Positions 39,576 through 48,912 of a stretch of DNA of 64,000 nucleotides are shown piece after piece. This DNA comes from Dolomitihabitans soli. GTDB lineage: Bacteria; Actinomycetota; Actinomycetes; Streptosporangiales; Streptosporangiaceae. The stretch's first letter is position 1. Each line of letters opens with the position of its first letter. The notes under the pieces are model-generated. The model made no database searches. It worked only from the letters and a program-made list of their open reading frames with translations, and was not told the DNA's origin. Position numbers and translations under genes: made by a program. The DNA lies in NCBI RefSeq assembly GCF_022213955.1, contig NZ_JAKNTW010000024.1:1-64000 (forward strand). The letters run 5' to 3'.

Positions 39576-40196
39576 TCAGAGACCGCTCTCCTCGCCGTCC
39601 CTCCGCCGCCGCGCCATGACGAGCGCCATGATCCCGAACCAGACCGTGGCCACCACCACGATCACCATCGGCACCACCGTCATCCCGCCCACTCCGGCCG
39701 CCTCCGCCCGCTCCCTCTCCCCGCCCTGTCCGTCCCCGGCCCGTGCCCCGCCGTCCCGTTCCTCCCCGGCCCGTCCCCCGCTGTCGCGCTCCCCGGCGTC
39801 CCGTTCCCCGACGGCGGGCGACGGGCTCGCCAGCGCGAAGCCGATCTCCCCGCTGATCGGATCGCCGCCGGCGGAGACCACCCGGTACGCGACCGTGTAC
39901 CGGCCCGCCCGGCGCAGCGCCCTGAGCGGCTGCCTGACCCTGCCCCCGCTGATCATCACCTTCCCCTGCTCGCACCGTTCCCGCCGGGGCCCGCGCACGA
40001 CCACCGTCGCCGTCTCGGGGAGCACCCCGTCGCCGAAGCTCAGCAGCACCGACGCCGGGGCCCGGGACAGGGTCGTCCCATCCCGCGGGTCGCTCGCCTC
40101 CAGGCCGTTCCGCGCCTCGGCCGCCCCCGCGTTCCCGCAGACGAGCAGCACCCCCAACCCCACCACCACGGCACGAGCCGCCAGAAACCGCACCAT
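39576..40196 (-). CDS. CopC-like domain protein with C-terminal membrane helix, copper ligands not conserved
   Basis: A 206-residue protein with signal peptide (cleavage near Ala25), a CopC beta-sandwich (ASDPRDGTTLSRAPASVLLSF), a charged Gly/Glu/Arg linker and a C-terminal helix before a basic tail. In copper-binding CopC the mature N-terminus begins with His and a second site reads DGHP; here these read ARNGL and GGDP. The protein may have lost copper binding. ATG 40196 has AGGAG upstream. It lies between a TetR remnant and nuoN, in the same direction. Confidence 0.75.
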   Translation of the reverse strand: MVRFLAARAVVVGLGVLLVCGNAGAAEARNGLEASDPRDGTTLSRAPASVLLSFGDGVLPETATVVVRGPRRERCEQGKVMISGGRVRQPLRALRRAGRYTVAYRVVSAGGDPISGEIGFALASPSPAVGERDAGERDSGGRAGEERDGGARAGDGQGGERERAEAAGVGGMTVVPMVIVVVATVWFGIMALVMARRRRDGEESGL

Positions 40197-40449
40197 GAAC
40201 CACTCCTCTTTCCTCCGCCCGGAGGTACGGCCCGCCCGCACCCGGAGTTCACGTCGCCACCCGCGGCCACCGTGGGAGCCCCCGAACGCGTACGGCGGGC
40301 CCGGCGCTCCTCGTCGAGCCGTGGCGAACCGGCGGCGACACCGCCCGCGACCGGCTCACCGAACCTCCGACGGCGACCACCTGGGCCGCAAAGCCGGCGA
40401 GCCGGTGAGCCGGTACCGCCGGGCGGACCTCACGTGTCCCGCCCGCGCG

Positions 40450-41814
40450 TCACCCCCGGGTGAGCATGAGGGCGGCGGCGACGCCCAGGAGCAGTGACGC
40501 CGTGGCGGCGAGGCAGGCGACGCGGGTGGCGACGGGAGCCGGGGCGGGCGGCTCGCCGGGGCGGAAGGCGGGGACGATCCAGCGCAGGTAGTAGAAGACG
40601 CTGGCCACGGTGTTGAGCACGGCGACCACGGCGAGCCAGGCGTAGCCACCGTCCACGGCGGCGGCGAAGACGAGGAGCTTGCCGGCGAAGACGGCGGTGG
40701 GCGGCGTGCCGACGAGGCCGAGCAGGCACACCACGAGGGCGAGGGCCAGGCCGGGCGCGCGGCGGGCGAGTCCCGCGTAGCCGGCGAGCGAGTCCCGGCC
40801 CACGGCGACCACGACGGCGAACGCGCCGAGGTTGGTAACGGCATAGGCGGCCAGATAGAACAGCAGCGCCGGGCGGGCCAGGCCGGTCTGGCCGGTGACG
40901 GCGACCGGGATCAGCAGATAGCCGGCCTGGCTGATGGTGGAGTAGGCCAGCAGGCGGCGCACGTTGTCCTGGTGGAACGCGGCGAGGTTGCCCAGCGTCA
41001 TGGTGGCCACGGCGATCAGCGCGACGAGCGGGCGCCAGCCGGCGTCGGCGCCGTCGAACATCTCGGTGGCCAGCCGGAGCAGACCGGCGAGGGCGCCGAT
41101 CTTGGGCACGGTGGTGACGAACGCGGCGACGACGGGCGGCGCGCCCTCGGTCACGTCGGGCACCCAGAAGTGGCCGGGCACCGCGCCCGCCTTGAACAGC
41201 ACACCGGCGAGCAGGAGGAGGATCCCGCACCCGGCGGCGGCTCCGGGCGCTCCCGCCAGGGACATGTACGAGGTGGTCCCCTTCAGGCCGTAGAGGAGGG
41301 TGACCCCGGCGAGCATGATCACCCCGAGGAACGCGCCCATCAGGTAGTACTTCAGCGCGGCCTCGGTCCCACGGCCGTCCTCGGCGAAGCCGGCCAGGGC
41401 GTAGGCGGGGATGCTCGCCACCAGGTAGGCGGCGGCGAAGACGAGCAGGTCACCGGCTCCGGCCAGGACGACCGCGCCGAGGGCGGCCAGCAGGAGCAGG
41501 ACGTAGACCTCGGCCTCCCGGCGGTTCCCCCGGGCCCACCCGGCGGCGAGCACGACGACGAGCAGCGTCGCGACGGCGACGGTGACGCGGGTGACGTTGG
41601 TCAGCGGGTCCACGGCGTACGCCTCGAAGGCCATGGTGTCCGGCCGGACCGCCGCGAACGCGGTCGCCACCGCCGCCCCGGTCAGCGCCGTACCGCAGAT
41701 CCAGGCCACCGCCCGCTGCCGGTCACGCCGGGTGAACGCGCCGGTGAGCAGCCCGATGACCGCGCCACCGAGCATCAGGAGCTCCGGGAGGAGAGCCGAC
41801 GGGTCCTCGTTCAC
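40450..41814 (-). CDS. nuoN: NADH-quinone oxidoreductase subunit N-like antiporter subunit
   Basis: A 454-residue, about 13-helix proton-channel subunit of complex I. The Lys sites are kept: ALKYYLMGAF, and LLFKAGAVPGHFWVPDVTEGAP followed by TTVPKIGAL. The Glu of helix 5 seen in standard NuoN (GxELxSLP) is replaced: the aligned stretch reads AAYLVASIPAYAL with no acidic residue. The start is GTG 41814, overlapping the stop of a 22-codon ORF. It is the last gene of the nuo operon; about 200 bases without a gene follow. Confidence 0.92.
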   Translation of the reverse strand: MNEDPSALLPELLMLGGAVIGLLTGAFTRRDRQRAVAWICGTALTGAAVATAFAAVRPDTMAFEAYAVDPLTNVTRVTVAVATLLVVVLAAGWARGNRREAEVYVLLLLAALGAVVLAGAGDLLVFAAAYLVASIPAYALAGFAEDGRGTEAALKYYLMGAFLGVIMLAGVTLLYGLKGTTSYMSLAGAPGAAAGCGILLLLAGVLFKAGAVPGHFWVPDVTEGAPPVVAAFVTTVPKIGALAGLLRLATEMFDGADAGWRPLVALIAVATMTLGNLAAFHQDNVRRLLAYSTISQAGYLLIPVAVTGQTGLARPALLFYLAAYAVTNLGAFAVVVAVGRDSLAGYAGLARRAPGLALALVVCLLGLVGTPPTAVFAGKLLVFAAAVDGGYAWLAVVAVLNTVASVFYYLRWIVPAFRPGEPPAPAPVATRVACLAATASLLLGVAAALMLTRG

Positions 41815-41879
41815 ACGATCGCCTCGCCGGGTGGGTCGAGGACCGCGTCCGCGAAGGCGCGTGGCGTGACCGCCGTCAT
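41811..41879 (-). CDS. 22-residue ORF coupled between nuoM and nuoN
   Basis: ATG 41879 overlaps the nuoM stop as ATGA, and the stop at 41813-41811 overlaps the nuoN GTG as GTGA. The peptide reads MTAVTPRAFADAVLDPPGEA plus Ile-Val. The 4-base overlap at both ends is the same arrangement used by the real nuo genes here, so it is probably translated, either as a small subunit or only as a relay for ribosomes. No relative is recognised. Confidence 0.5.
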   Translation of the reverse strand: MTAVTPRAFADAVLDPPGEAIV

Positions 41880-43360
41880 CGCGACACCAGGGCTACCAGG
41901 GCGGCGGCGACCGGGTCGATGAGGTCCAGCAGCCAGCGGGGCGCGATGCCGATGATCAGCGACAGGGCGAGCAGGGGCGCGACCGCCGCCAGTTCCGCCG
42001 GCCGTACCTCCGTGACCCGGCCGGTCAGCTCGCCGGGGCCGCCGAGGAACACCTTCCGCAACACCCGCAGGAACAGCGCCGCGGTGATCAGGATGCCCAG
42101 TACGGCCAGCGCCCCCGCCACCACCGCGCCCGCCCCGATCACCCCGGCGAGGATCTGGAACTCGGCGATGAACCCGGAGAACCCCGGCAGGCCGAGCGAG
42201 GCGAACGCGGCGACGGCGGTCAGCGCGGTGAGGATGGGGGCGTTCGCGGCGATCCCCCCGAACCGGTTCAGTTCGTAGGCTCGCGCGCGGTCCCAGAACA
42301 CCCCCGTCAGCAGGAACAGCGCCCCCGTGACGAGCCCGTGGCCGACCATCTGGGTCACCGCCCCGGTCACCGCCAGTTCCCTGGCCCGCACGTCGCCCGC
42401 GACCAGGCCCGCCGCGCCGAGGGCGAGCACGATGTAACCCATGTGGTTGACCGAGGTGTAGGCGATCAACCGTTTCAGGTTCTCCTGCGCGAGGGCGACG
42501 AGCGCGCCGTACAGCAGGCTGACCACGCCGATGGCGATGATCACCCAGGCGTACCGCTGCCAGGCGACGGGAAGCGTCGGCAGCGCGATCCTGGCGAGGC
42601 CGTACGTGCCCATCTTGAGCAGGACCCCCGCCAGGACGGCCGACCCGGCGGCGGGCGCGTCCGTGTGCGCGGGCGGGAGCCAGGTGTGCAGGGGCACCAC
42701 GGGCGTCTTGACGGCGAACCCGACGAAGATCGCGATCAGGACCGGGGCGGCGCTGCCGGGCGAGCCGGAGAACGGCGGGTTCGCGGCGAGGTCGGTCAGG
42801 TCGAACGTGTGCGGCTCGGCGCCGAGGAACAACCCGATGAAGCCGAGCAGCAGCACCAGCGAGCCGAGGAAGGTGTAGAGGAAGAACGTCAGCGCCGAGC
42901 GCGCCCGGTCCCCGTGCCCCCAGCCGACGATCACGAAGTACATCCCGACGATCGACAGGTCGAAGAAGACGAAGAACAACAGCAGGTCCAGGGCGGCGAA
43001 CACGCCGATCGAGACGGTCTGCAGGAACAGGAAGAGCGCCGCGTACGACCGTGGGCGTTCGGTCCCGCGCAGCGAGTAGACCGCGCAGAGCAGGAAGAGC
43101 AGCGCCGTCATCGCGATCAGCGGCAGCGACATCCCGTCCACGCCCACGTGGTAGCCGGCGCCCGCCGACGGGATCCAGCGCAGCCTGGTCTCGTGGCCGA
43201 TCCCGCCCCGGTAGCCCAGCCACATCGCCGCGACCAGGATGAGATCGACGGCGGTCGCGGCGATCCAGACCCAGATCGCCCGCCGCCCGCCGAGCCCGCG
43301 CAGGGCCAGCAGCGTGGCGGCGGCCAGTGGCAGGAAGATCACAATGGTCAGCACGGTCAC
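41876..43360 (-). CDS. nuoM: NADH-quinone oxidoreductase subunit M-like antiporter subunit
   Basis: A 494-residue complex I antiporter-like subunit. It keeps the channel Lys residues (FAVKTPVVPLHTWLPPAHT; LLKMGTYGL), the NHMGY helix and the late Glu in FSGFIAEFQIL. The helix 5 position that is Glu in standard NuoM is Asp134 here (FFVFFDLSIVGMY). GTG 43360 overlaps the nuoL stop (GTGA) and its own stop overlaps the small ORF before nuoN. Role: proton or ion translocation in the membrane arm. Confidence 0.94.
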   Translation of the reverse strand: MTVLTIVIFLPLAAATLLALRGLGGRRAIWVWIAATAVDLILVAAMWLGYRGGIGHETRLRWIPSAGAGYHVGVDGMSLPLIAMTALLFLLCAVYSLRGTERPRSYAALFLFLQTVSIGVFAALDLLLFFVFFDLSIVGMYFVIVGWGHGDRARSALTFFLYTFLGSLVLLLGFIGLFLGAEPHTFDLTDLAANPPFSGSPGSAAPVLIAIFVGFAVKTPVVPLHTWLPPAHTDAPAAGSAVLAGVLLKMGTYGLARIALPTLPVAWQRYAWVIIAIGVVSLLYGALVALAQENLKRLIAYTSVNHMGYIVLALGAAGLVAGDVRARELAVTGAVTQMVGHGLVTGALFLLTGVFWDRARAYELNRFGGIAANAPILTALTAVAAFASLGLPGFSGFIAEFQILAGVIGAGAVVAGALAVLGILITAALFLRVLRKVFLGGPGELTGRVTEVRPAELAAVAPLLALSLIIGIAPRWLLDLIDPVAAALVALVSR

Positions 43361-45333
43361 CTCACCAGCGCGATCACGACGGCCAGCAGCGCCAGCCCGA
43401 TCGCCGCCTGGGCGAGGTAGAGGTGCGCCTGGCCGGTCTGCGGACGTCTGGCGAGCGTTCCGAGCCGACCGGCCCCCGCCGCGACCGCCCGGACCACCCC
43501 GTCGATCCCCGTCTCCACCGGCGTCCTGGCGATGCCGGCCGCCCGGGTGACGGCGCGCGCCGCCCCGTGCACGGCCCCGTCGATCACCCGGTCGTCGAAC
43601 CGTGCCAGCGCGCCGGCCAGCGCCATGACCGGCCGCGCCACCGCCGTTCGCGCCACCCGTTCCAGGCCGAACCAGCGCGCCGGCCCCCACCACAGGTCCA
43701 CCCCGAGCGGTCGGACACCGCGACGCCGTACGGCGAGCACGAGCCCGGCGACCACGACCGCCAGGCCGCCGGAGACGGCCAGTTCGGCGGCTCCCGGGCC
43801 GCGCTCCGCCGGAACCCCGAGCAGCCCGGCCCACCCGTCGAAGACCACGGGGACGCCGACGACGCCGAACCCCGCGGCCGCCAGCGCCAGCGCGGCGAGA
43901 GGCGCCCAGCCGAGCGGACCTTCGCCGGGCCGCTTCCCCGGCTGCGGCGGGGCGGGGGCGCCCGGTCGCCAGACGACGATCAGCGCCTTGGTGGCGTAGG
44001 CGGCGGCGAGGAGGGTGGCGGCGAAGGCGACCACGCGCAGGGCGGGCGGGTGCACCGAGGCGAGGACGGCGTCCTTGGTGACCCACAGCGACAACGGCGG
44101 CAGCCCGGCCAGGGCCGCCGCGCCGATCCCGAAGGTGACCCCGGTCACCGGGTGACGCCGGGCCGCGCCGCGCAGCCTGACCAGGTCCTCGGTGCCCAGG
44201 GTGGTCAGCCAGACGCCGGCGCAGAGGAAGAGCAGGCTCTTGACGGCGGCGTGCGCGACGAGATGCGCGACGCCGCCCGCCACGGCCGCGACCCCGGCGG
44301 CCAGCACCATGAAGCCGACCTGCGCGCAGGTGGAGGCGGCCAGGAGTTGCTTGAGGTCGCGCTGGGCCAGGGCGACCGCGCCGAGCAGCAGCGCGGTCAG
44401 CGCGCCCGCCCAGGCGACCAGCGTGGCGGCCCATCCGGTGGCGGCGAGCAGGGGTTCGACCCGGAGCAGCAGGTACGCCCCGGCGGCGACCATGGTGGCC
44501 GAGTGCAGCAACGCGGAGACCGCGCTCGGCCCGGCCATCGCGCGCGACAGCCAGAACGAGAAGGGCAACTGGGCCGACTTGCCGAGGGCGGCCACCACGA
44601 TCCCGGCGGCGATCAGGTGCGCCCAGGGCGAACCGGCGGCGGGCAGGGCGGCCAGGCTCAGCGAGCCGGTACCCGCGAGGGCGCAACCGGCGGCGAGATA
44701 GAGGCCGAGGTCGCCCGCCCGGGTGGTGACGAAGGCGAGGTCGGCCGAACGCGCGTGCTCCGCGTCGTGCCACCGGTAGCCGATCAGCGCGTACGACATC
44801 GCGCCCATGACCTCCCACGCCATCAGCAGCAGCGCGAGGTCGGCGGCCGTCACGGTGACCAGCATCGCGGCGGTGAACAGCAGCATCAGGCCGAAGAACC
44901 GCGCGTCACGCGCCTCGCCCGCCGCGAAGGCCAGCACGGCGAGCGCGACGGCGGCCACGGTGACGACCATCACCGCCGACAGCCCGTCCACCGCCAGCCC
45001 CGACCGCAGCCCGTCGAAGAGCACCGTGTCGGCCCGGGGCCGGTCCACCGCGACGAGCACCGCGACCAGCAGAGTCACCACCGCGACCAGCACGGCGACC
45101 GGACCCGCGAGCCCTTCCCGCGCACCGCGGAGCAGGCCGCCCGGTCGTCTGCCGGCAGCGGGCTCACCATGCGCCCCGCCCTTCCCGGAGGCCCATCCGC
45201 TCCGTCCCCGAGCCGGCTCCCCGTACGGCTCCGCCCCGCCGTCGTGCCTCCGGGACGGGACGAGGTGGGCGATCAGGAGCAGGGCGCCCGACACGGCCGG
45301 CAACCCGGGGAGAACCCACAGCAGGCCGTTCAC
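43357..45333 (-). CDS. nuoL: NADH-quinone oxidoreductase subunit L-like antiporter subunit
   Basis: A 658-residue subunit with about 15 helices. It shows the helix 5 Glu (LLMAWEVMGAMSYALIGY), the Asp in TTRAGDLGLY, the channel Lys (ALGKSAQLPFSFWLSRAMAG) and HSATMVAAGAYLL. A hydrophilic insertion of about 45 residues rich in Gly, Arg and Pro follows the first helix. The C-terminal part includes the lateral helix region and a last anchoring helix. GTG 45333 overlaps the nuoK stop by three bases. Confidence 0.94.
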   Translation of the reverse strand: MNGLLWVLPGLPAVSGALLLIAHLVPSRRHDGGAEPYGEPARGRSGWASGKGGAHGEPAAGRRPGGLLRGAREGLAGPVAVLVAVVTLLVAVLVAVDRPRADTVLFDGLRSGLAVDGLSAVMVVTVAAVALAVLAFAAGEARDARFFGLMLLFTAAMLVTVTAADLALLLMAWEVMGAMSYALIGYRWHDAEHARSADLAFVTTRAGDLGLYLAAGCALAGTGSLSLAALPAAGSPWAHLIAAGIVVAALGKSAQLPFSFWLSRAMAGPSAVSALLHSATMVAAGAYLLLRVEPLLAATGWAATLVAWAGALTALLLGAVALAQRDLKQLLAASTCAQVGFMVLAAGVAAVAGGVAHLVAHAAVKSLLFLCAGVWLTTLGTEDLVRLRGAARRHPVTGVTFGIGAAALAGLPPLSLWVTKDAVLASVHPPALRVVAFAATLLAAAYATKALIVVWRPGAPAPPQPGKRPGEGPLGWAPLAALALAAAGFGVVGVPVVFDGWAGLLGVPAERGPGAAELAVSGGLAVVVAGLVLAVRRRGVRPLGVDLWWGPARWFGLERVARTAVARPVMALAGALARFDDRVIDGAVHGAARAVTRAAGIARTPVETGIDGVVRAVAAGAGRLGTLARRPQTGQAHLYLAQAAIGLALLAVVIALVR

Positions 45334-45635
45334 CCTTTCAGCTCTCCCGCGTCGTCGGTCAGGTCGACCTCGCGGGCCCGGAAGAGCGCGGTGACCACGG
45401 CGAAGCCCATCGCCATCTCCAGCGCCATGACCGTCACCACGACCAGCACCAGCACCTGCCCGTCCGCGGCGCCGGGCGCGAGGAAGTACCAGAAGCCGCC
45501 ACCCGCGACGATCAGGCCGTTGATCATGAGTTCCAGCCCCATCATCAGCATCACGATCGACTGCTGGGACAGCGCGCCGTACAGACCCACGGCGAACAGG
45601 GCCGCGGCCAGCAGCAGGAAGCCCTCCAGGGTCAT
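45330..45635 (-). CDS. nuoK: NADH-quinone oxidoreductase subunit K
   Basis: A 101-residue, three-helix subunit of the membrane arm. Both buried carboxylates are present: Glu35 in MMGLELMING and Glu73 in VMALEMAMGFAVV. ATG 45635 overlaps the nuoJ stop (ATGA), and the gene end overlaps nuoL (GTGA). The acidic C-terminal tail (EVDLTDDAGELKG) is slightly longer than usual. Confidence 0.94.
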   Translation of the reverse strand: MTLEGFLLLAAALFAVGLYGALSQQSIVMLMMGLELMINGLIVAGGGFWYFLAPGAADGQVLVLVVVTVMALEMAMGFAVVTALFRAREVDLTDDAGELKG

Positions 45636-46162
45636 CGCTCCCCCTCGCCAGTACGCCGGTCCGGCGGCGGGTCGTAACGTCCCCGGGCGGTCGCGAGGAC
45701 CACGGTCGAGATCATGGTCGCCAGGATCGCCACCCCGATGACCATCATCACCAGCATCTTCGGCCCCATGATCGACAGGCCGAGCGCATGAGTGGGGTCG
45801 GCGGGCGGGCGTCCCCGCCGCCGGGGCCATGGCGTCAGGAGCGCGCCCGCGGCGAGCAGGACGAAGACGCCGCCCGCGACGAGTCCGGCGATCCGGGTGT
45901 TGTGCACCATCCTCATCGGCGTCAGCCCGGCCGGGTTCATCATGAACATGATCATGAATACCGCCATGATCAGCATCTCCATGACCATCATCAGGATGAT
46001 CAGCACCCCGAGGTAGTGCAGGTCGATCAGCAGGAAGGCCACCCCGACCGCCAGCAACGACGTCAGCAGGGCGAACGTGGCCCGGGCCATCGAGTCGACC
46101 ACGAACACCGCGACCGCGCTCGCCGCGGACACCACGGCCAGGCCCCAGAACGCCGCCGTCAC
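45632..46162 (-). CDS. nuoJ: NADH-quinone oxidoreductase subunit J-like
   Basis: A 176-residue, five-helix membrane subunit. The central helices are unusually Met-rich (LMMVMEMLIMAVFMIMFMMN), with a Glu inside. The loop after them (PAGLTPMRMVHNTR) and the C-terminal tail are basic. GTG 46162 overlaps the nuoH stop (GTGA). It couples the quinone end to the antiporter-like subunits. Confidence 0.88.
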   Translation of the reverse strand: MTAAFWGLAVVSAASAVAVFVVDSMARATFALLTSLLAVGVAFLLIDLHYLGVLIILMMVMEMLIMAVFMIMFMMNPAGLTPMRMVHNTRIAGLVAGGVFVLLAAGALLTPWPRRRGRPPADPTHALGLSIMGPKMLVMMVIGVAILATMISTVVLATARGRYDPPPDRRTGEGER

Positions 46163-47067
46163 AACACCACGACCGCGACGACGAGCAGTTGCAGCAGCGA
46201 GGCCGGGATCAGCACCAGCCACGACACCTGCGTGAACCGATCCATCCGCACGGCGGGCAGCCGGTGCGCCGCCCAGATCAGCCCCGCCAGCACGGCGGCG
46301 GTCTTGATCGCCGTCCACGCCCAGGCGGGCAGCACGGGCCCCGCCCCGCCGCCAAGGAAGAACGGCACCGCGGCCGCCGCGGCGACCACCAGGAGCGCGT
46401 ACCTCCCCACCTGGAAGACCAGCCGGTCCGGCCCGGACAGCTCGCCCCGTACCCCGCCCGCGATGTCCGATCCCACCGGCCGGTCCATCGGCCCCCAGAA
46501 CGCCATCGCCGCCGCCGACACCAGATAGACCGCGAACGCCACCGGCATCCACACCACGAACCACAGCCCGCTCTGCGCCGCGACCACCTCGCCGACCCGC
46601 AGCGAGCCCGCCCCCAGCCCGACCGTGATCAGCGCGAACATGTGCGGCAGCTCGTAGGCGAGCCCCTGCGCCACGAACCGGTAGCCCCCCACCAGCGGAT
46701 AGCAGGAGTTGGTCCCCCACCCGGTGAGCCAGATCGCCCCCCAGACGCACACCTCCATCGCGTTGAACCACACGACGCCGACGGGCGGATCGGCCACCGG
46801 CCGCTCCCCCAGCGGCAGCACGACCCCCGCGAGCACCGCCGCCACGAGCAGCCCGCACACCCCGGCGCGCAGCAGCAGCGTGTCCGGCAGGAGGGTACGG
46901 CGCCGCTGCTGCACGAGCAGCCGGGCCGCCTCCCGCAGCGGCCCCCCGGCCGCCCGCCACGACCACCCCGCCCCCACCACCGAGTCGAACACGGCCGCCA
47001 CCACCGTGAACCCCGCCAGAGCCACCGGAAAAGCGACCACGATCCCGTACGGCACGGCTTCAGACAT
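46159..47067 (-). CDS. nuoH: NADH-quinone oxidoreductase subunit H-like
   Basis: A 302-residue subunit with eight helices that normally forms the quinone tunnel entrance. GWGTNSCYPLVGGYRFVAQG and AYELPHMFAL (Glu139) correspond to the family stretch NSKYxxLGxxR-AxQxxSYE; the Lys is Cys122 here. The usual acidic loop PEAExELVxGxxxEYS is reduced to SDIAGGVRGELSG. The quinone-binding face is therefore modified. ATG 47067 overlaps the end of the NuoB/D-like gene. Confidence 0.9.
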   Translation of the reverse strand: MSEAVPYGIVVAFPVALAGFTVVAAVFDSVVGAGWSWRAAGGPLREAARLLVQQRRRTLLPDTLLLRAGVCGLLVAAVLAGVVLPLGERPVADPPVGVVWFNAMEVCVWGAIWLTGWGTNSCYPLVGGYRFVAQGLAYELPHMFALITVGLGAGSLRVGEVVAAQSGLWFVVWMPVAFAVYLVSAAAMAFWGPMDRPVGSDIAGGVRGELSGPDRLVFQVGRYALLVVAAAAAVPFFLGGGAGPVLPAWAWTAIKTAAVLAGLIWAAHRLPAVRMDRFTQVSWLVLIPASLLQLLVVAVVVL

Positions 47068-48574
47068 GGCGCAGGGCTCCGAGCTGCTCCGTGTCAGGGT
47101 CCAAACTGGCGACGATCAGCCGCGCCGCCCCCAACTCGACCCCTTCGAGCACCCCTGGCAGTACGGCGAGCAGCGCCCGCGACGGCTGAGCGCCCACCGG
47201 CCCTCGCGGCCCCCGGTCGTCCTGGAGGATCGAGGGGTCGTCCAGCGCGCCCAACGCCACCCCGGTCGCGACGAGCCAGCGATCCAGCCGCGCCGCCACG
47301 TCACCCGAGAACCGCCCGCCTCCCACCCCACCGCGTCCGGACAGCCCGGCACCTCCCCCGGCCCCCGGCGATCCAGCACCACCGCCCACGCCCACGCCCA
47401 CGCCCACGCCAGAGGCGACACTCGATCCGGCACCGGCACCACCCCCGACACCCGGCCTTCCACCACCGTCTCCCACCCCACCTCCTCCTGACAGCCAGGC
47501 ACCACCCCCGGTCCCCGGCGCTCCAGCGCCGCCGCCCACGCCACCGGTGTCCGGCGGCTCGTCGCCGATCACACCGAGGTCGCGAAGCATCCACCGGAGG
47601 AGGCGCGAGCGGCCTACCCGCCGGGCGAACCAGCCGAACTCCGGCATCAGGTCCTCGCGGGAAGCCCCCGCCAGCGCGCGGTCCCGCAGCGCCCTCGCCG
47701 TGGCCGCCGCGGCCGGCCAGCCCGCCACCGCGAGCAGCCGGCCCAGGCTGTCGAGATGCGCCGCGGCCCTGCGCCGCTCCGCCTCGCCCCGCGTCACCCG
47801 ATGCCCCCGGCTCGCGAGCAGCCACGGCTCATCCCAGAACGGCGCCTCCCCGCCGCCACGCGCATCGCCCTCGTGCTCACCTGCCGTGTCCGCCGAGTCC
47901 CGGTGCCCATCCGCCGCGTTAGCCGAGCCCTCACGGCCGCCGCCGGACTCCGGGCCTGGACCGTTCCAAAACCCGGGAGTCAGGCGGATCGACGCCCGCT
48001 GGATCACGTCTCCCTGCAACGTCGCCTCGACCACGAGCCCGCTCGGCCAGTCGGCCAGGATCGGCCCCAGCGGCACATGCAAACGATCAAGCGCCAGACC
48101 GTCCCGATCCGGCCCCCGACCGGCCATCGGCACTCCACCCGGGCTTCCGCCGTGCTCACCGTGCTCGTCGTGCCCGTCGTGCCCGTCGTGCTCTCGGCCG
48201 GCGGGCATGGGCGCGGACGGCCGGGAACGGGCCAGGTGCGCGGCCGCGTCGCGGCGTTGGGCCGGCGCGTCGGCCAGCCGTACGACGGCTTGGTCGAGTG
48301 CCTGGGCGGGGTCGGTCCCGTGGGGCAGTTCCACCAGGGCGCGGGGAGCGGACATGTCCATCCAGACGGTGCGGATCGCCTTGTCGAGGGCGTCGCCGGG
48401 GATGCCGCACACCACCAGGAGACTCGCCCCGGCCGGGCCGTCGGCGATGGGCCAGCCACGGCGGGCGAGTTCCCGTTCCACCCGCAGCCGGGTGCGCGTG
48501 CCGTACGGGGCGGTGACCACGAGGGGGCGCGGGCGGCGGGCGGCCTGGCGGGTGAGCCAGTCGCTCAGGCCCAC
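47060..48574 (-). CDS. Complex I-associated NuoB/NuoD-like subunit lacking iron-sulfur ligands
   Basis: A 504-residue soluble protein between nuoA and nuoH, where nuoB-C-D normally stand. Residues about 16-85 resemble NuoB (RRGWPIADGPAGASLLVVCG, then MDMSAPRALVEL), but the cluster-binding Cys pair and the other Cys ligands are absent. Residues about 178-200 (LVVEATLQGDVIQRASIRL) look like a NuoD beta hairpin. Between them lies a His/Asp/Glu-rich run (residues 129-141), and a Gly-rich repeated region lies near 350-430. GTG 48574 overlaps the nuoA end. It probably caps the membrane arm; function is unproven. Confidence 0.6.
   Translation of the reverse strand: MGLSDWLTRQAARRPRPLVVTAPYGTRTRLRVERELARRGWPIADGPAGASLLVVCGIPGDALDKAIRTVWMDMSAPRALVELPHGTDPAQALDQAVVRLADAPAQRRDAAAHLARSRPSAPMPAGREHDGHDGHDEHGEHGGSPGGVPMAGRGPDRDGLALDRLHVPLGPILADWPSGLVVEATLQGDVIQRASIRLTPGFWNGPGPESGGGREGSANAADGHRDSADTAGEHEGDARGGGEAPFWDEPWLLASRGHRVTRGEAERRRAAAHLDSLGRLLAVAGWPAAAATARALRDRALAGASREDLMPEFGWFARRVGRSRLLRWMLRDLGVIGDEPPDTGGVGGGAGAPGTGGGAWLSGGGGVGDGGGRPGVGGGAGAGSSVASGVGVGVGVGGGAGSPGAGGGAGLSGRGGVGGGRFSGDVAARLDRWLVATGVALGALDDPSILQDDRGPRGPVGAQPSRALLAVLPGVLEGVELGAARLIVASLDPDTEQLGALRHV
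47338..47550 (-). repeat. Imperfect repeats encoding the Gly-rich region of the NuoB/D-like subunit
   Basis: Two copies of a segment encoding GGVGGGAG(A/S)PG(T/A)GGGA lie about 159 bases apart. Within them a CCCACG hexamer repeats four times (47383-47410), encoding alternating Val-Gly. This is low-complexity coding sequence, prone to slippage, not a CRISPR array. Confidence 0.7.
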
Positions 48575-48912
48575 AGGAACGCGCCCTCGCGCCAGGCGTA
48601 GACGACCCCGGCCATCAGGAGGCCGAGGAAGAGGAACATCTCCACCACCGTGGCGACCCCCACCTCGGCGACGACCAGCGCCCACGGGTACATGAAGACC
48701 ATCTCCATGTCGAAGGCCAGGAAGACGAGGGTCACGGCGTACCAGCGGGCGTGGTATCGGGACAGGGCGTGCTCCTGCGGGCGCGCGCCGGAGAGGAAGG
48801 GCCCGACCCCGAGCGGGCCGGGCGGCGCGAGCAGGAGCGAGACGGCGTACACCCCGGCGACGGCCGCGCCGAGCAGGCACAACAGGCTGAGAACGGCTGC
48901 CCAGGATTGCAT
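48565..48912 (-). CDS. nuoA: NADH-quinone oxidoreductase subunit A
   Basis: A 115-residue, three-helix subunit. The conserved second-helix segment FLAFDMEMVFMYPWA carries the two acidic residues of the family, and the protein ends VYAWREGAFLWA. I chose ATG 48912, preceded by GGGAGAAG; a start 11 codons upstream (48945) has a poorer ribosome site. It is the first gene of the nuo operon, and its end overlaps the NuoB/D-like gene by 10 bases. Confidence 0.92.
   Translation of the reverse strand: MQSWAAVLSLLCLLGAAVAGVYAVSLLLAPPGPLGVGPFLSGARPQEHALSRYHARWYAVTLVFLAFDMEMVFMYPWALVVAEVGVATVVEMFLFLGLLMAGVVYAWREGAFLWA

Follow-up and report, generated by a model that had tools for sequence, protein, structure and literature searches.

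A redox-free relative of respiratory complex I, probably linked to copper, in actinobacteria and on their plasmids

An eight-gene nuo-like operon

The window analyzed here, a stretch of 64,000 nucleotides from the actinobacterium Dolomitihabitans soli (contig NZ_JAKNTW010000024.1, positions 1 to 64,000), contains on the minus strand, between positions 40450 and 48912, an operon of eight genes that we recognized from open reading frames and Pfam/NCBIfam matches as nuoA-X-nuoH-nuoJ-nuoK-nuoL-nuoM-nuoN. The seven membrane subunits were all identified with Pfam and NCBIfam. The first gene encodes a NuoA-like protein of 115 amino acids (aa) (48565..48912; PF00507, E 3e-24, along with residue conservation in 79 homologues), and is followed by the gene for the 504-aa protein X (47060..48574), discussed below, and by those for a 302-aa NuoH-like protein (46159..47067; PF00146, E 1e-41), a NuoJ-like protein with a presumed GTG start and a methionine-rich third transmembrane helix (TM3) and TM3-4 loop (45632..46165; PF00499, E 6e-13), and a NuoK-like protein of 101 aa, counted from a presumed ATG (45330..45635; PF00420, E 3e-13). 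The three antiporter-type subunits come last, namely a 658-aa NuoL-like protein (43357..45333; Pfam/NCBIfam), a NuoM-like protein (41876..43360; 456 bits to TIGR01972 (NDH_I_M), cut-off 264) and a 454-aa NuoN-like protein (40450..41814; 336 bits to TIGR01770 (NDH_I_N), cut-off 333). Because NuoM and NuoN both score above the cut-offs of their NDH-1 subfamilies, the operon descends from respiratory complex I and not from Mrp antiporters or hydrogenases.

An earlier sequence-only reading of this DNA had given the same gene order, and all eight genes lie where it placed them. Its claim that the genes run with stop/start overlaps holds from nuoA through nuoM, with overlaps of a few base pairs at the A/X, X/H, H/J, J/K, K/L and L/M junctions, but not for nuoM and nuoN, which are 61 bp apart, the only junction of the eight genes without an overlap. 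The absence of NuoC, E, F, G and I from the operon, which it had also noted, holds at all loci examined, including those on plasmids, and no genes for these subunits were seen next door in the stretches examined.

Protein X

As a single-sequence query, X produced no match in Pfam, NCBIfam or the PDB. A profile built from seven relatives matched NuoB/NDUFS7 chains in the PDB (E about 3e-4), and hhalign comparison using 72 X relatives aligned residues 42-78 with NuoB (E 4e-6) and the C-terminal part with the C-terminus of NuoD (E 1e-5); the NuoD N-terminus matched weakly but collinearly, and the order is NuoB followed by NuoD. The AlphaFold2 model of X reaches a pLDDT of at least 90 over 316 residues, and all 50 of the PDB matches listed by Foldseek are NuoD- or NuoB-type chains from complex I, NDH, FHL, MBH and MBS, with modest scores (best E 1.3e-3, TM-scores about 0.2-0.5). 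Family profiles, model and fold matches together confirm X as a fusion of a degenerate NuoB (approximately residues 15-102) and a degenerate NuoD (approximately residues 150-495), joined by a linker rich in histidine and methionine (residues 103-149; 14.5% His, compared with 1.6% in the rest of X). The model has a low-confidence stretch that coincides with a Gly-rich, low-complexity insert (residues 344-417; window positions 47320-47545), which is absent from most relatives.

The traces of both folds suspected in the sequence-only reading are thus borne out, and so is the loss of the Fe-S ligands. The cysteines that bind the N2 [4Fe-4S] cluster have no counterpart in X, and there is no conserved set of cysteines among the 72 X proteins, in which the single frequent cysteine is C56 (51 of 72). 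The quinone-site histidine motif of NuoD, GPQHPxxHG, is missing as well, the aligned place reading GPxLxDWPxGL. Given the lack of both a conserved cysteine set and the quinone-site histidine motif, X can be considered redox dead.

Retained charges and new methionines in the membrane arm

Most of the charges of the proton channels, given here in Escherichia coli numbering, are present in essentially all aligning homologues. NuoL retains E144, K229, K342 and K399, NuoM retains K234, K265 and E407 (with E144 replaced by D), and NuoN retains K217, K247 and K395 (with L at the position of E133). Both E-channel glutamates of NuoK, E36 and E72, and the E-channel acids D79 and E81 of NuoA are also in place. 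Among the quinone-site and E-channel glutamates of NuoH, E157 and E228 are retained, whereas E36, E216, E218 and E241 are lost. This conservation fits the view of an ion-translocating machine that was put forward in the sequence-only reading.

A new feature, which that reading missed, is the methionine content of NuoJ. The NuoJ proteins of the operon contain 16-19 methionines, most of them invariant, and the TM3 region alone has 11-13, compared with 1-4 in 28 canonical NuoJ proteins and that of E. coli. Among the NuoJ positions conserved in at least 94% of the homologues are 14 of the 17 methionines but only 15 of the 60 L/I/V/F residues (P 2.9e-5); the corresponding excess is weaker in NuoK (P 0.03) and NuoA (P 0.07) and not significant in the other subunits. 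TM3 and the TM3-4 loop of NuoJ follow the motif MMxxEMxxMxxFMxMxMMNPxGLxPMxMxH, also found in the plasmid homologues. M55, M59, M62, M66 and M70 form a stripe along one helical face of TM3; a second set of methionines is located at positions 128, 132 and 135. In NuoK, invariant methionines flank the E-channel glutamates, and M72, M74, M75, M113 and M117 are new residues in the surroundings of the E-channel. NuoA shows a conserved M69-E70-M71-M74 beside its E-channel acids as well as two loop histidines, H48 and H54, that are absent from canonical NuoA. In complex I, TM3 of NuoJ gates the proton wire along the central axis, and the loop that follows it touches that of NuoA at the cap (PMC10212512).

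Distribution of the operon

The operon is not a one-off but represents a widespread, conserved family, which the sequence-only reading did not foresee. A scan of GTDB genomes yielded 220 X relatives, and the 80 loci that we analyzed all belong to actinobacteria, going by the record titles. The order A-X-H-J-K-L-M-N is identical at every complete locus among them, which is compatible neither with chance nor with local deletion. Strong X matches (E below 1e-15) occur in about 27 of 395 sampled genomes of the class, representing about ten families, and weak X-profile matches at residues 42-84, found in dozens of genomes, resemble ordinary NuoB genes. Two divergent copies of the operon are present in one genome (G010), and another (G410) has two X matches.

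Complete copies reside on plasmids of the Mycobacterium avium complex, Rhodococcus, Gordonia, Arthrobacter, Curtobacterium and Pseudonocardia, where X is annotated in public records as 'hypothetical' or 'DUF4779'. Several operon proteins have the same accession (WP_007626392, WP_017836399 and WP_007626381) on a plasmid of Rhodococcus pyridinivorans and on one of Gordonia hongkongensis, members of two families, which points to recent horizontal transfer. On M. avium pMAH135 and an M. intracellulare plasmid, the whole operon is found close to nocobactin-type genes and to those for a metal-binding protein and a heavy-metal P-type ATPase. Truncated copies, consisting of nuoA with X or a fragment of X, occur on Rhodococcus oxybenzonivorans pRB29, where the copy adjoins repeated M56/BlaI pairs and ctaD, and on a plasmid of Streptomyces sp. 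NBC_00080.

The D. soli genome (10.8 Mb in 81 contigs) was also searched for other nuo loci. The separate nuo operon that the sequence-only reading proposed to look for is present on contig C79, where similarity identifies A, B, C/D and H through L in the 20 kb examined. Between D and H, large genes occupy the place of E-G; M and N lie past the end of these 20 kb. In addition, a nuo2 set is located on contig C37 (45-54 kb), comprising A, a Cys-bearing NuoB2, H, J, K, L and further genes, and a lone NuoD2 is encoded far from it, at C79:305757-306500. A gene for a [NiFe]-hydrogenase-like small subunit (C14:148523-149023) lies about 100 kb from the operon on the same contig.

Association with copper genes

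Gene content around the operon was compared with the expectation from genome-wide counts in 40 genomes (439 kb of flanks; Poisson). DUF305 genes were found in the flanks of 12 loci (0.22 expected), CsoR genes in those of 8 (0.14 expected) and BlaI/CopY genes also in those of 8 (0.17 expected), each with P <1e-10, these counts being mutually dependent since the genes cluster. Among the 80 loci, 33 have at least one gene for CsoR, a CPC-ATPase, DUF305 or a multicopper oxidase, and not only does the Cu(I) ligand pattern occur in most of the flanking CsoR proteins, but the full-length flanking ATPases carry CPC motifs. On plasmids, the operon follows CopZ-CopA in Curtobacterium, lies opposite CsoR-CopZ-CopA in Pseudonocardia, and follows DUF305 and a multicopper oxidase in Arthrobacter FB24. 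BlaI/CopY-type regulators and M56 peptidases recur near the operon at 17 and 15 of the 80 loci, respectively; no CopY/BlaI-type boxes were found upstream of nuoA, and such boxes were discarded as its operator.

Furthermore, the palindrome TACCCC-N3-GGGGTA, which is the core of the CsoR consensus of Streptomyces lividans (PMC3902906), is present in exact form within 250 bp upstream of nuoA at 6 of 87 loci, in Streptomyces, Saccharopolyspora and Curtobacterium, a figure obtained with a spacer length picked after several had been tried and in which the Streptomyces cases are related, so that lineages rather than loci are the proper count. Genome-wide, 53 such sites occur in 16 genomes (about 142 Mb), giving about 0.008 expected upstream of nuoA, and in three genomes the palindrome lies less than 100 bp from a CsoR gene. 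At the level of the family, the operon is accordingly associated with copper genes and the CsoR operator, as a copper determinant would be. The operon is very probably linked to copper, a context that escaped the sequence-only reading.

In D. soli itself, a CopC-domain protein is encoded about 209 bp downstream of the operon (39576..40241, minus strand; PF04234, E 9e-16). CopC was considered as a general companion of the operon and rejected, with none flanking the operon in 40 other genomes; the gene in the window may encode an accessory copper protein of this genome.

A possible Cu(I) exporter on a complex I scaffold

On sequence evidence, the operon is best read as encoding a descendant of complex I that would have become a redox-free, copper-related, ion-translocating membrane machine. 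A more specific form of this reading, to which we give about an even chance, is a proton-driven Cu(I) exporter built on the complex I scaffold, with an E-channel rebuilt from methionines, and spread among actinobacteria by plasmids. Copper excess would relieve repression by CsoR; Cu(I), delivered from the cytosol by a chaperone or by the linker of X, would enter at the former quinone cavity and pass to the NuoA loop histidines and the MPMxMxH loop of NuoJ. The methionine stripe of NuoJ TM3, standing in for the former proton wire, would then carry it out of the cytoplasm, and inward proton flow through NuoL, NuoM and NuoN would pay for the transport. The complex would thus be a Cu(I)/H+ antiporter with the same direction of exchange as CusA, in which a methionine relay is tied to proton import (PMC8092243). 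We infer the export direction and the Cu(I) substrate from the sequence patterns, and silver is a possible substrate too. The sequence-only reading had suggested that an unknown partner could drive or gate the complex. Its description of a complex I-like operon with a NuoB/NuoD-like cap and no redox arm stands; its idea of driving or gating would give way to Cu(I) movement powered by the proton gradient, the partner most likely being copper, as substrate, rather than a missing redox protein.

Several observations weigh against this reading. The window lacks a CsoR box and its only copper hint is CopC, the flanks examined, roughly 11 kb, contain no obvious copper gene at 47 of the 80 chromosomal loci, and the X linker is His-poor in some homologues (fewer than three histidines in 18 of 72). 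The continuity of the methionine path across NuoJ, NuoK and NuoA is presumed from homology. Finally, the proton path itself has changed, with E133 replaced by L in NuoN, Y59 replaced by M in NuoJ and several glutamates of NuoH gone, and the pumping cycle can therefore not be canonical.

Among the alternatives, the one that fares best, although we regard it as unlikely, is an antiporter of H+ against Na+ or K+, in the manner of Mrp, that is gated by copper and protects pH or membrane potential under copper stress. The methionines and the linker of X would then sense the metal as a signal, without the complex moving it. The retained antiporter charges speak for it, the copper genomic context would be the same, and the related Mrp complexes are non-redox cation/H+ antiporters (PMC7419157); yet the stripe along TM3 together with the second methionine set exceeds what a single sensor site needs, and the operon has no MrpE/F/G-type subunit. 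Less probable again is a copper-resistant or otherwise alternative complex I that borrows NuoI and the NADH-side subunits from nuo1 or nuo2, or takes electrons from Cu(I). The other nuo loci of the genome could supply such subunits, but the loss of the N2 ligands and of the quinone-site histidines leaves no evident electron path, and the quinone-loop glutamates of NuoH have disappeared too. We rate marginally lower an importer of Cu(I), or a machine recycling periplasmic copper, that supplies cuproenzymes: multicopper oxidases are encoded near several loci and ctaD on one plasmid, but the CsoR operators and the CopZ/CopA neighbours suggest induction by copper excess, as is typical of resistance. 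A functionless, decaying nuo remnant, which the redox degeneracy of X and the truncated copies on two plasmids might suggest, is scarcely credible and was rejected, being contradicted by eight intact genes in strictly fixed order across families of Actinomycetota and mobile plasmids and by the invariant new residues, the methionines in particular.

Complex I is heavily studied, and how its quinone end drives the remote antiporters is still debated. Should the proposed Cu(I) exporter be real, it would show that the membrane arm and the E-channel can power, or be powered by, a process other than electron transfer, and the operon would represent a new class of metal transporter and an unexpected type of copper determinant in soil actinomycetes and on actinobacterial plasmids.

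Comparison with known systems

Open-access literature searched for a copper-linked nuo operon, for copper genes of pMAH135 and for Ehr contained no report of this system. By tests of membership, the operon falls outside complex I, nuo2, Mrp and the hydrogenases and forms a redox-free branch within the complex I superfamily. It has in common with NDH-1 the subunits A, H, J, K, L, M and N, most of the antiporter charges and the NuoK glutamates, but lacks the NADH module, NuoC and NuoI, the Fe-S ligands and the quinone-site histidines, and its E-channel region is rich in invariant methionines. The nuo2 set of Streptomyces consists of nuoA2, B2, H2, I2, J, K2, L2, M2 and N2 with a remote nuoD2 (PMC8388888), an arrangement, described for S. 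ambofaciens, that the split nuo2 and nuoD2 of D. soli resemble. Like the operon, nuo2 is a second, incomplete actinomycete nuo set without E, F and G; unlike it, nuo2 has a Cys-bearing NuoB, NuoI and a separate NuoD, none of which are among the genes of the operon.

The Mrp antiporters likewise put NuoL/M/N-type subunits to a non-redox use. They have MrpE, F and G but neither a NuoH-like subunit nor a NuoB/NuoD-like cap, whereas the operon encodes both a NuoH-like subunit and X. Group 4 hydrogenases, FHL, Mbh/Mbs and Ehr have the complex I-type architecture in common with the operon, and the fold matches of X include chains of FHL, MBH and MBS. However, FHL, Mbh and Mbs are redox enzymes that retain the NuoB-type [4Fe-4S] site, and X, a fusion of NuoB and NuoD, lacks the [4Fe-4S] ligands that mark the small subunit of group 4 [NiFe] hydrogenases and Ehr, the Ehr proteins themselves not having been compared. 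CusA, the RND exporter of Cu(I) and Ag(I), belongs to an unrelated protein family and serves the Gram-negative envelope; the principle that the operon may have in common with it is a transmembrane relay of methionines that is coupled to the import of protons (PMC8092243).

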